64,000 nucleotides of DNA from Brumimicrobium salinarum. GTDB taxonomy: Bacteria > Bacteroidota > Bacteroidia > Flavobacteriales_D > Crocinitomicaceae. The stretch covers positions 186,001-250,000 of the forward strand of contig NZ_PJNI01000002.1 in assembly GCF_002844555.1 (NCBI RefSeq), written 5' to 3'. A program made the translations under genes and the position numbers. Shown here piece by piece: positions 35,035 to 41,181 of the stretch; positions within the stretch are counted from its first letter, which is position 1, and each line of letters begins with the position of its first letter. Below the pieces are notes generated by a model. It did no database searches. It saw only the letters and a program-made list of their open reading frames with translations, and was not told the origin of the DNA.

Positions 35035-38004
35035 ATGGCAGAAGACAATACTCCTGAGGAAGAAGAAAACAACAACATTCCTGATAATGATGCTGAAAAT
35101 GATGATCACAAAGACGTCAACGGCAAAAAGAAAGTGGATGAAAATATCATTTCACTAGATGGACTTTATGAAAATTGGTTTCTTGATTACGCCTCGTATG
35201 TAATTTTGGAACGTGCTGTTCCTGGATTAAATGATGGATTAAAACCCGTTCAGCGAAGAATTTTGCACTCCATGAGAGAAATGGAGGATGGAAGATATAA
35301 TAAGGTAGCCAACATCATCGGTAACACCATGAAGTTTCACCCGCACGGAGATGCTTCTATTGGAGATGCTTTGGTGCAACTCGGACAAAAAGAGTTACTT
35401 ATTGATATGCAAGGTAACTGGGGAAACACACTCACCGGCGATGGTGCAGCTGCTCCACGTTATATTGAGGCACGTTTATCTAAATTTGCGCTTCACGTTG
35501 CGTTTAATGCGAAAACCACAAAATGGCTGACCAGTTACGACGGAAGAAATAAGGAACCAGAGGATTTACCCATGAAGTTCCCGCTTTTATTAGCGCAAGG
35601 AGCAGAGGGAATTGCTGTTGGATTGGCTTGTAAAATCCTTCCACACAACTTTATCGAGTTAATTGATAATTCAATCAATCATTTACGTGGTAAAAAAGTG
35701 GAAATTCTACCAGACTTTTTAACTGGGGGAATGGCTGACTTCACCAACTACAATGACGGATTGCGTGGAGGAAAAGTTCGAGTAAGAGCAAAAATAAATA
35801 AGGTTGACAATAAAACCTTAAGCATAACAGAAATTCCTTTTGGTACGACAACAACTTCCTTAATCGACTCTATTCTTAGGGCCAACGATAAAGGAAAGAT
35901 TAAAATCAAGAGGATTGATGACAATACAGCTGCTGAAGCGGAAATTTTAATTCATCTGGCGAGCAATGTTTCTCCCGATAAATTAATTGATGCTTTATAT
36001 GCTTTTACTGATTGTGAAGTTTCTATTTCGCCAAACTCTACGGTAATTGACGATGAAACGCCACGTTTCTTAGGAATGAGCGAAATCCTTCGTCGCAATA
36101 CTGATAAAACGGTCGGATTACTTAAAAAAGAACTGGAAATTCGCAAAGGAGAGCTGGAGGAACAATGGCATTTTAGTTCATTGGAGAAAATCTTTATCGA
36201 GAACAAAGTCTACAGTTTAATTGAAGAGGAAGAAACCTGGGAAGGTGTAATTTCTGCAATTGATAATGGTTTAAAACCGCATATTAAACATCTTAAAAGA
36301 GAAGTTACGCGCGATGACATTATTCGTTTAACGGAAATTAAAATTAAACGAATTTCTAAGTTCGATAAATTCAAAGCAGATGAAATAATCAAACGCATTG
36401 AAGAAGAATTGGCGGAAGTCATTCACAACATTGAAAATATTATCGATTTTGCTGTTGAGTACTTTAAGGATTTAAAAAAGAGATTCGGAAAAGGAAAAGA
36501 ACGTAAAACAGAAATTCGTGTTTTTGATAATATTAATGCTTCCAAGGTAATTATTGCCAATGAAAAGCTTTATGTAGATTATAAAGAAGGATTTATTGGA
36601 TACAAACTAAGAAAGGCTGAATATGTTCAAGATTGTTCTGAAATTGATGATGTAATCGTTTTTTTCAAAACAGGAAAAATGATGGTAACCAAAATTGCCG
36701 ATAAAAAGTTTGTGGGTAAAGGAATTGTTCATGCTGCAATCTGGAAACGGGGCGATAAACGTACGATTTATCACTTTATTTATAAAGATGGCAAAACTGG
36801 ACATACATTCATGAAGCGTTTCTTTGTGAAATCAATTACGAGAGACAAAGAATATGATTTAACGACAGGTAAAAAAGGATCAAAACTACTTTATTTTGCG
36901 GCTCATCCAAACGGAGAGCGTGAAGTAGTAAGCATTACGCTTAAAGCAAGAACACATCTTAAAAAGCTGAAATTTGATCTGGATTTAGGAGAGCAACTGA
37001 TTAAAAGTCGCTCGGCTAAAGGAAATATCGTGAGTAAAGAAGATGTTTCTAAAATCGTTCAAAAAGAAGTCGGAGGTTCGACATTGGCTGCTCGTAAGAT
37101 TTGGTATGATGAGATTGTTGGACGTTTAAATGATGATCAAAGAGGAACTTTCTTAGGTCGATTTAGAGGTGATGATAAGATTCTTACCTTATATAAAAAC
37201 GGAGAATATCGTTTATCAAGTTTCGATTTAACAACGCATTTCGATGATGATATGTTCCATATTGAAAAGTGGAATCCAGAGCATGCGATTTCCGCTGTTT
37301 ATTATGATGGAGAAAAAGAAATTCACTACGCAAAGAGATTTGTATGTGAAGTAACCACGGACAGAAGAGTTCCATTTATTCCAGAAACAGAAGGAACTGA
37401 GTTGGATGTAGCTACTACAGCTTATGAGCCAGAGGTAAGAATTATTTATAACAAACTACTCAAAGCAACAAAGCATCTACCTGATAGAATCGTAAGGATT
37501 GATGAATTCATCGATGTTAAGGGAATGAAGTCTATTGGAAATCAGTTGGAAAAGTTGCGTGTCAAGGAAATCGAGCTGACTCATCCAGTAAAAGGAGAAA
37601 CGCCTTGGCCAGACGATGAGGAAGTCAACGAGGAAGAAGAAAATGAAAATGACAACTCCGATTCTCAAGGTAACAAGGGAAAGGATGATAACAACAAGGA
37701 CAATGGAAGTGATGCTTCTGATGAATCGAATGATTCGGGAGATGACGATCCAGATGGCGAAGGGCCTAAAAAAGATGGACCAAAGTCGGGGAGTGGTGCT
37801 AGTAAAAAGGTAGATAAGAAAGAAACTAGCGATGCAAAAGAAGCAGACGATAAAAAGTCAGCTCCAAAATCGGAACATAAAAAGGAAGACGATGATAAAC
37901 CAAAGCCAAAACCAAGAAAACGAAGTTTATCGCGACGACCAGTTAAAGATAAACCCGCAAAAACAGTAGAATGGGATTTGTTTAGTCAATCCGATTCCGA
38001 TTAG
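35035..38004 (+). CDS. parC: DNA topoisomerase IV subunit A with long charged C-terminal tail
   Basis: 989 residues, longer than usual ParC (about 750-880). N-terminal acidic residues 1-38 are disordered. The breakage-reunion domain then has YENWFLDYASYVILERAVPGL-type sequence, LKPVQRRIL, FHPHGDASIGDALV, and the catalytic tyrosine Y143 in APRYIEARLS. A coiled-coil and C-gate precede the C-terminal beta-pinwheel blades (residues ~520-800). Residues ~860-989 form an extreme low-complexity tail: first Asp/Glu/Asn/Ser-rich, then Lys/Asp/Pro-rich with RKRSLSRRPVKDKP, ending in EWDLFSQSDSD. It probably modulates DNA or partner binding. Co-transcribed with parE; a terminator follows. Confidence 0.95.
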   Translation: MAEDNTPEEEENNNIPDNDAENDDHKDVNGKKKVDENIISLDGLYENWFLDYASYVILERAVPGLNDGLKPVQRRILHSMREMEDGRYNKVANIIGNTMKFHPHGDASIGDALVQLGQKELLIDMQGNWGNTLTGDGAAAPRYIEARLSKFALHVAFNAKTTKWLTSYDGRNKEPEDLPMKFPLLLAQGAEGIAVGLACKILPHNFIELIDNSINHLRGKKVEILPDFLTGGMADFTNYNDGLRGGKVRVRAKINKVDNKTLSITEIPFGTTTTSLIDSILRANDKGKIKIKRIDDNTAAEAEILIHLASNVSPDKLIDALYAFTDCEVSISPNSTVIDDETPRFLGMSEILRRNTDKTVGLLKKELEIRKGELEEQWHFSSLEKIFIENKVYSLIEEEETWEGVISAIDNGLKPHIKHLKREVTRDDIIRLTEIKIKRISKFDKFKADEIIKRIEEELAEVIHNIENIIDFAVEYFKDLKKRFGKGKERKTEIRVFDNINASKVIIANEKLYVDYKEGFIGYKLRKAEYVQDCSEIDDVIVFFKTGKMMVTKIADKKFVGKGIVHAAIWKRGDKRTIYHFIYKDGKTGHTFMKRFFVKSITRDKEYDLTTGKKGSKLLYFAAHPNGEREVVSITLKARTHLKKLKFDLDLGEQLIKSRSAKGNIVSKEDVSKIVQKEVGGSTLAARKIWYDEIVGRLNDDQRGTFLGRFRGDDKILTLYKNGEYRLSSFDLTTHFDDDMFHIEKWNPEHAISAVYYDGEKEIHYAKRFVCEVTTDRRVPFIPETEGTELDVATTAYEPEVRIIYNKLLKATKHLPDRIVRIDEFIDVKGMKSIGNQLEKLRVKEIELTHPVKGETPWPDDEEVNEEEENENDNSDSQGNKGKDDNNKDNGSDASDESNDSGDDDPDGEGPKKDGPKSGSGASKKVDKKETSDAKEADDKKSAPKSEHKKEDDDKPKPKPRKRSLSRRPVKDKPAKTVEWDLFSQSDSD

Positions 38005-39807: not shown

Positions 39808-39840
39808 AAAAAGTGCTGTCGATAATAGACAGCACTTTTT
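39808..39840 (+). terminator. Rho-independent terminator
   Basis: A perfect 13-bp stem AAAAAGTGCTGTC / GACAGCACTTTTT with loop GATAATA; works in both directions because of the flanking A and T runs. Confidence 0.93.
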
Positions 39841-39892
39841 ATTTAACAACTCTATTTAACATAATATTAATTATAAGACAAAAGTAGTAAAT

Positions 39893-40538
39893 CACGTATA
39901 GCTTGCTATTTAATATAAAATCAGATATAATGACTTTAGTCTTATATCGTTAGCGATTTTATGTTAAAGTGATTTACGTGTTAAAAAGAGAGATTCTTTT
40001 CCTTACAAAAATAGAATTCATGCATATATTACACGTATAGCTTGCTATTTAATATAAAATCAGATATAACGACTTTAGTCTTATATCGTTAGCGATTTTA
40101 TGTTAAAGTGATTTACGGTGTTAAAAAGAGAGAGATTATTTTCCTTACAAAAATAGAATTCATGCATATATTACACGTATAGCTTGCTATTTAATATAAA
40201 ATCAGATATAATGACTTTAGTCTTATATCGTTAGCGATTTTATGTTAAGTGATTTACGGTGTTAAAAAGAGAGAGATTATTTTCCTTACAAAAATAGAAT
40301 TCATGCATATATTACACGTATAGCTTGCTATTTAATATAAAATCAGGTATAACGACTTTAGTCTTATATCGTTAGCGTTTTTATGTTAAAGTGATTTACG
40401 GTGTTAAAAAGAGAGAGATTATTTTCCTTACAAAATAGAATTCATGCATATATTACACGTATAGCTTGCTATTTAATATAAAATCAGATATAATGACTTT
40501 AGTCTTATATCGTTAGCGATTTTATGTTAAAGTGATTT
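39893..40538. repeat. Tandem array of five ~141-bp palindromic units
   Basis: Units begin with CACGTATAGCTTGCTATT at 39893, 40032, 40174, 40315 and 40456; lengths 139, 142, 141 and 141, then a partial last unit of ~83. Each unit contains a long imperfect hairpin (e.g. 39893-39980): outer CACGTA/TACGTG, a 13-bp stem TTAATATAAAATC / GATTTTATGTTAA with one G-T pair, a 7-bp stem GATATAA / TTATATC, and a GAC-TTTA-GTC tip. The spacer part carries a GAATTCATGCATATATTA segment and, on the minus strand, a TATTTTTG element. Units differ only by single substitutions and one-base indels, so expansion is recent. No ORF crosses them. Confidence 0.93.
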
Positions 40539-40731: not shown

Positions 40732-41181
40732 ATGAAGCGTATTAATCAATACAAAAAGCTTTTCAATATCGACGCTGACATTGAATTGAGTCACCTTAAA
40801 AAAACGTACCGAACGCTTGTTAAACTTTGGCATCCAGATAAATTCATTGAAGAAAATGAAAAATCTAAGGAAGCTGAGTTGATGAGTAGAGAAATTACAC
40901 AAGGTTATGAATTTCTGGTAAGTATAGCGCCTGAAACGGCAAAGAAAAACTTGGATCAGTATAATGAAATGTTAAATAATTGTCCAATAGTTGATTACCA
41001 ATGGTCGAAACAAGTGTTAGAAGTTGACTTTTCAAATGGAGCAACTTATGAATATTTTGGTGTTTCTAGAAAACTCTACCTTAAGTTTCTTAATGCAGAT
41101 AATCAACATAGATTTGGAAAAAGAAACATCTTTAATAAAAATTTGTACCGAAAATCAAAGTCAGCTGCACTTGCAGTTTAA
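40732..41181 (+). CDS. J-domain / KTSC-domain fusion protein
   Basis: 149 residues. Residues ~5-65 are a short J domain with the HPD motif at 34-36 (LWHPDKF), needed to stimulate DnaK ATPase. After a helical linker, residues ~88-140 match a KTSC-type domain: VLEVDFSNGATYEYFGVSRKLYLKFLNA (strand-helix pattern), HRFGKRNIF. There is no glycine-rich region or zinc finger, so it is not canonical DnaJ. It is cytosolic, probably recruiting DnaK to a specific target. Its promoter carries a strong operator-like palindrome, and the tandem palindromic array lies just upstream. Confidence 0.88.
   Translation: MKRINQYKKLFNIDADIELSHLKKTYRTLVKLWHPDKFIEENEKSKEAELMSREITQGYEFLVSIAPETAKKNLDQYNEMLNNCPIVDYQWSKQVLEVDFSNGATYEYFGVSRKLYLKFLNADNQHRFGKRNIFNKNLYRKSKSAALAV

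Follow-up and report, generated by a model that had tools for sequence, protein, structure and literature searches.

The window (the whole stretch of 64,000 nucleotides that was analysed) contains a dif site, at which the bacterium separates its replicated chromosomes, and, beside it, a row of hairpins, both lying between two genes of the plus strand. One of these, a 989-aa gene at 35035..38004, we take to encode DNA topoisomerase subunit A, and the other, at 40732..41181, is presumably a J-domain gene. Between them follow a hairpin that resembles an intrinsic terminator as read from the sequence (39810..39840, plus strand), the dif site (39854..39881, minus strand) and the hairpin array. On the plus strand the dif site reads ATTTAACATAA (XerD arm), TATTAA (centre) and TTATAAGACAA (XerC arm), arms which we took to correspond to those of the E. 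coli dif. The assignment of the arms also makes use of the V. cholerae dif table in the available part of PMC3089051.

The array had been described in an earlier note on this DNA as five tandem units of about 141 bp, and tandem repeat analysis with TRF agrees with this description (39893-40538, period 141, 4.6 copies, 97% matches). The units start at 39893, 40032, 40174, 40315 and 40456, i.e. in steps of 139, 142, 141 and 141 bp. They are also nearly identical, as had been claimed: the hairpin parts of 82-83 nt differ by 0-4 edits, those of copies 1 and 5 are identical, and so are spacers 2 and 3. That the copies are not all alike bears on the question of an assembly artefact. The array is non-coding in the sense that it holds no ORF of at least 60 aa. 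The note had also set aside a CRISPR array; such an array would have short repeats and differing spacers, and here the spacers are nearly identical (0-5 edits apart). The five-copy array of the earlier description therefore stands; what it overlooked is the dif site at 39854-39881 and the reduced left outer arm of copies 2-5.

The 13-bp and 7-bp stems given for the unit are correct. Copy 1 (39887..39977, plus strand), which begins 5 bp beyond the end of dif, carries in addition an outer stem and a side hairpin, so that the complete structure consists of the 9-bp outer stem, the 5-bp side hairpin, the 13-bp inner stem and an apical stem of 7+3 bp. This copy was defined by its fold and by its scores, 112 bits with a hairpin-only model and 94.3 bits with a second model, R2. 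Within it, the XerD-like 5' arm of the inner stem occupies 39908-39918, a 6-nt centre 39919-39924, the XerC-like arm 39925-39934 and the inverted arm 39959-39968. Copies 2 (40032..40114), 3 (40174..40255) and 4 (40315..40397) have lost most of the left outer arm, and copy 5 (40456..40538) is truncated in the right outer arm; all four lie on the plus strand, were delimited by TRF, model searches and comparison of the copies, and keep no more than the last part of the left outer arm seen in copy 1. The RNA-fold z-scores on the plus strand are -3.7 for copy 1 and -2.3, -2.4, -1.5 and -1.6 for copies 2-5, so that copies 4 and 5 are unremarkable when taken alone; on the minus strand the two copies that were folded gave -3.8 and -2.2. 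Sequence and model searches found no second locus of the hairpin in the genome of the window (3.41 Mb, 86 contigs).

Shorter rows of hairpins occur in L091, L096, L086, L071 and G367, and the row of the window is the longest seen. In the window, L096, L086, L071 and G367 one repeat passes into the next within the hairpin's left outer arm or close to it, which is why the later copies of a row lose part of that arm. The rows at these five places may share one way of duplication.

A 25-bp core of the dif site was found, with at most 3 mismatches, in 196 of 240 genomes of the family, mostly as a single occurrence, and was without match in 44 of the 240, including 17 of the 151 good-quality ones. 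On the 289-kb contig the cumulative GC skew has its maximum at 227,061, which is 1.2 kb away from dif (contig position 225,854), but it is nearly as high at 270,000. The keto and purine skews reach their maxima at 217,947 and 270,961, and within the window several skew peaks are almost equal; taken together the skew data give supportive but soft backing to the dif site. A profile search of the genome revealed one XerD above the curated cut-off and another recombinase gene of the XerC/D kind. Two more tyrosine recombinase genes adjoin each other elsewhere in the same genome (G000:C23:272784-275369).

The two sides of dif differ in their gene content. In the genus of the window the cluster of the topoisomerase gene is present in all 9 of the genomes fetched, and in all 9 the gene is kept on the XerD side of dif. 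On the XerC side the backbone begins with the gene at 40732..41181, whose cluster is found there in 5 of the 9, and the distance between dif and the common backbone genes on this side ranges from 0.09 to more than 9 kb. In genus g49 each of the ten most widely shared gene clusters (up to 8 of 15 genomes) is situated on the XerD side. In other words, in two genera the XerC flank of dif is variable and the XerD flank is conserved.

The unit itself is a forked hairpin built from dif-like parts. Its 5' strand has a XerD arm, a 6-nt centre and a XerC-like arm, i.e. the same spacing as dif, and its 3' strand is an inverted copy of this dif-like strand with a longer centre. Compared with the dif of its own locus, the XerC-like arm agrees at 5.26 of 9 positions, against 2.70 in shuffled sequences (0/2000). 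Base pairing was investigated in 34 aligned hairpins and shows strong covariation: 93.0% of the cells are paired as compared to 75.8% after shuffling (0/500) and 34-44% when the strands were slid; both sides have changed in 19 of 28 pairs, in an alignment that is the same as the one from which the structure was derived. In the outer stem, whose pairs were not demanded by the search pattern, all 9 pairs vary on both sides and 84.2% of the cells in the 34 hairpins are paired. Two loci in which no hairpin was seen by eye or with R2 (L067 and L084) were left out of the alignment and of the comparison of the XerC arms, and one row (L098) is given with shifted ends and without the right outer arm. 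We note that R2 matches the rows of the alignment by construction, because it was built from them. Inverted dif-like sites with a long and a short centre, predicted to be foldable, occur inside the hairpin and, in relatives, as an outer pair, a pair that was not found in the window.

The earlier note had proposed a search for single copies of the unit in relatives, and such copies were indeed found, in a genome of the same genus (G001, locus L098) and in one of another genus (G026, locus L094); it was these copies that led to dif. In both genomes 37-38 nt separate dif from the XerD-like arm. The hairpin-only model detected the hairpin in 3 of 240 genomes of the family, with dif adjacent every time. 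A pattern scan of the collection genome_contigs, in which dif had to be followed by two inverted XerD-like arms, returned 35 loci, 33 of them with a hairpin; 31 of these are titled Bacteroidota and the remaining two Eubacteriales and Chlorobiota MAGs. Because the pattern required dif and the arms, these 35 loci are no test of the link to dif.

Model R2 matched 11 of 395 genomes in a phylum-wide draw that included the genome of the window. Without the latter the matches are 10 of 394, and 9 of them are the hairpin; the match in G309 is a pair of dif and inverted dif without a hairpin. Immediately ahead of the hairpin there is a dif site (at most 1 mismatch) in G367, G458, G371, G291 and G442, a dif-like site with a long centre in G580 (twice) and G564, and a degenerate dif-like site in G348 and G486. 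The hairpin was matched in 53 of 146 genomes of genus g49 and in 2 of 59 of genus g56. Among the 61 hairpin matches listed for g49, the 29 with new loci were classified together with one of g56, giving 30 loci: the hairpin follows a dif with a 6-nt centre in 20 (at most 2 mismatches in the XerD arm) and a long-centre site in 8, and in the remaining 2, one of which lies at the end of its locus, it follows neither. An inverted dif-like site comes after the hairpin in 19 of the 30, and in 13 of these the offset is constant to within 3 nt. The hairpin thus recurs across Bacteroidota, and with few exceptions it is a dif or dif-like site on whose XerC side it lies.

In the relatives the hairpin has a dif-like site on either side, one with a long centre and one, inverted, with a short centre. 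The full site consists of a dif-like sequence with a 9-11-nt centre, the forked hairpin and an inverted dif-like sequence with a 6-7-nt centre. On the XerC side of dif the dif-distal boundary of a gene block is marked by a long-centre site, typically GTTACATAA-CGCAGAACA-TTATAG, and second hairpins sit behind such sites 3.5-10 kb away; CAAAGC precedes all 8 long-centre sites among the 30 classified loci. Blocks headed by a hairpin include Pycsar in L138 (PycC, 6.5e-146), Gabija in L132 (GajA, 1.7e-153 and GajB, 5e-210), candidate PDC-M65B in L134 (3e-226) and an IrrE/DUF4411 pair in L093. Others are metabolic, with aldehyde and homoserine dehydrogenases in L212, an FMO in L214 and a histidine-specific methyltransferase in L223. 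Further blocks have no hairpin at the head: a short-Argonaute-associated protein in slot 1 of L131 (3.6e-89), a Septu-like pair at dif in G004 and an ssDNA-phage-like block in L132 (9447-16597; Rep PF23343, endolysin phrog_894). In L133 GajA (1.8e-283) precedes the hairpin-bearing site, so this block is not headed by a hairpin either. The PADLOC models matched 9 of 10 hand-picked cargo proteins and 2 of 3 in a second hand-picked set; as the loci were chosen by the hairpin and the proteins by hand, we make no claim of enrichment. Likewise, a set of regions that was chosen for a 6-nt-centre dif beside a hairpin is no measure of prevalence.

The phage-like block of L132 sits between dif and the Gabija block that has the hairpin at its head. 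For most proteins of the phage-like block there is no PHROG match, and the one protein of it that was searched against the phages was unmatched. In G005 (L144) the XerC side is filled, 0.2-6.2 kb behind dif, by proteins of 1081 and 792 aa, and no PADLOC model matched the 1081-aa protein. L091 has, about 330-620 nt from dif and inside a hairpin copy, a small ORF with the inverted repeat CACCCTGTGAAATAA/TTATTTCACAGGG on either side; we take the ORF for a GIY-YIG nuclease by its looks. Several of the loci L046-L054 (genus g2) carry an inverted ATTTAACATAAT motif about 400-500 nt from dif, behind a gene that is presumably SEC-C/YchJ-like.

One block occupies different places in two genomes. It has Lrp, ALDH and homoserine dehydrogenase genes and fills slot 1 in L212 (0.56-3.99 kb from dif) but slot 2 in L214 (5.91-9.34 kb from dif), with 89% DNA identity between the two over 3.44 kb. 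The hairpins at dif in these two loci are 92% identical though the cargo differs, i.e. they are not tied to the shared block. As the hairpin is found at dif and also at the head of swappable blocks, it has the appearance of a docking element for mobile DNA which makes use of the recombinases of its host.

A design of this kind is known from phage CTXphi. In the accessible parts of the published descriptions, its genome has two inverted dif-like sites about 90 bp apart, with centres of 12 nt and 5-7 nt, which fold into a forked hairpin on which XerC alone exchanges one strand, leaving a functional dif and two non-functional sites (PMC4246890, PMC3089051). We think it probable that the unit described here forms the apical fork of a folded attachment site like that of CTXphi, belonging to modules that exploit the XerCD of their host, and that the window holds a row of such forks which is devoid of cargo and was recently amplified. 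The position at dif, the dif-like arms, the conserved fold and the layout of the modules in relatives support this reading. The full site, when single-stranded, would fold so that its XerD and XerC arms pair round a bulged centre, and host XerC/XerD could join this folded strand to dif. Starting from a strand with the order 5'-short-centre site, hairpin, inverted long-centre site-3', one XerC exchange, worked through by hand, would give a rebuilt dif, the hairpin, an inverted short-centre site, the cargo and a long-centre site. This is the order in L138 and others, and since a single exchange would yield it, the hairpin would be the fork, and a hairpin adjacent to dif the footprint of an integration.

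Putative mobile elements with cargo, presumably integrated, are present in relatives, e.g. L138 and L132. Behind the array of the window no outer sites and no cargo were found, the best candidates for such sites being equalled by 192 of 200 mononucleotide shuffles. The outer sites and the cargo may have been lost here, leaving the hairpin alone beside dif, and the hairpin would then have been amplified in place to five copies, recently, by slippage or unequal recombination. As judged by eye, the long-centre site and dif have one base in common next to the XerC cut, as compared to three for CTXphi and dif1. No extrachromosomal carrier of the hairpin was found among viral contigs, phages and plasmids: one pattern scan of viral_contigs gave 2 loci, both with the matches inside coding frames, and another gave 13, none with a hairpin beside dif; a sequence search had no match in the phages and one short Flammeovirga match, covering 15% of the query, in the plasmids; and the conserved module end was unmatched in both. 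The Flammeovirga record of the plasmid collection, of 639,981 bp, has a dif-like stretch of 27 bases (96% identity; NZ_CP076130.1 364233-364259).

A different owner of the hairpin may be considered, namely the host: the structure could be a resident accessory that helps XerCD/FtsK at dif and moves only together with modules inserting beside it. This would agree with the 20 of 30 classified hairpins that lie directly at dif, with the 92% identity of the dif-adjacent hairpins of L212 and L214 despite their different cargo, and with the window, G001 and G026, which carry the hairpin without an identified module. It is, however, at odds with the patchy spread (3 of 240 genomes in the family, 9 of the 394 drawn from the phylum, 2 of 59 in g56), which means that dif functions without the hairpin, and with the additional hairpins that follow long-centre sites at a distance of 3.5-10 kb, which appear as if each module had brought its own. 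A host-owned accessory fits these two observations less well than the CTXphi-like site does, and we regard it as unlikely. A free palindromic repeat of the REP or MITE kind, which landed at dif by chance and multiplied there, would likewise be palindromic, non-coding and tandem, but its confinement to one locus in its own genome, with no dispersed copies, its association with dif in lineages independent of each other (on the XerC side at every locus examined) and the match of its arms to dif make such an origin very improbable. The earlier note had suggested a palindromic element amplified in place or a protein-binding array; both ideas gain from the XerD- and XerC-like arms and the recurrence in relatives, and the part that falls away is a free transposon, as no second locus was found in the genome and the relatives have the element tied to dif.

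Two further readings concern arrays of known kinds. For an array of small RNAs transcribed from spacer promoters on the minus strand one can point to the stable folds on both strands and to TATTTTTG, which is present on the minus strand of spacers 1-3 as reported previously and is one T shorter in spacer 4. This motif is, however, outside the hairpin part common to the relatives, no clear -33 box was seen upstream of it by eye, and the eight Rfam matches of the array (E up to 5) are all below the gathering score, whereas the features that are conserved are the dif-like arms and the position at dif; the suggestion of a small-RNA array is therefore not supported, and its probability is very slight. 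The row of foldable sites and the cassette-like modules of the relatives also recall the attC array of an integron without a nearby integrase. Here the sites carry XerD and XerC arms and are located at dif, and the profile of the integron integrase (TIGR02249) gave 12 matches in the genome of the window, none over the cut-off, so we consider this the least probable of the alternatives.

Returning to the CTXphi-like attachment site, one may ask how far it extends. We tentatively suggest that Bacteroidota could own a phylum-wide, integrase-free capture platform at dif, in which XerC/XerD, acting on folded ssDNA hairpins, stack exchangeable modules (anti-phage, metabolic, ssDNA phages) on the XerC side in an integron-like manner; the window would then be an emptied and amplified docking array. 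In the titles and abstract openings covered, which include few subscription journals, we found no paper that describes, for Bacteroidota, such hairpins at dif, rows of them, or defence modules located there. The point of interest is that a folded-Xer-site design akin to that of CTXphi would recur throughout a phylum, tied to dif and at the head of defence and metabolic modules. If this is true, the combination of dif, forked hairpin and long-centre site becomes a searchable mark of a gene-exchange hotspot of Bacteroidota, and the link between Xer recombination and integron-like capture of cassettes becomes testable in harmless flavobacterial laboratory strains.

Several known systems share some of these traits. 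The attI/attC arrays of integrons are alike in that folded single-strand sites stack gene blocks at one anchor, but here the anchor is dif and no integron integrase exceeds the cut-off in the genome. The pdif modules of Acinetobacter plasmids are gene modules lying between Xer sites, without an integrase of their own. The hairpin-headed blocks resemble them, as far as the partial descriptions go, in both respects, whereas pdif modules reside on plasmids; we know of no forked hairpin in them. Folded single-stranded Xer sites are, to our knowledge, known mainly from phages of the CTXphi type. Xer-using ssDNA proviruses at dif have already been reported, also from Bacteroidetes: the BMV microviruses and PhiCjT23-like proviruses belong to the same phylum and have dif-like flanks, XerC/D has been proposed to act on them, and BMV4-6 have an additional dif-like site, according to the portions of the reports at hand (PMC3091885, PMC9719478). 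Those are virus genomes, however, and the phage-like block of L132 has no hairpin at its head. The closest likeness is to attP(+) of CTXphi and other integrative mobile elements exploiting Xer (IMEX), which, in the available parts of the sources, have inverted dif-like sites with unequal centres that fold round a segment of about 100 nt, integrate at dif without an integrase of their own and leave the order dif, short-centre site, cargo, long-centre site. In contrast to CTXphi, the site of the relatives is found in another phylum and its centre has 9-11 nt instead of 12, the cargo serves defence and metabolism, base homology at the cut is weak, the hairpin also forms rows without cargo, and the intervening segment is itself a conserved, dif-like forked hairpin.
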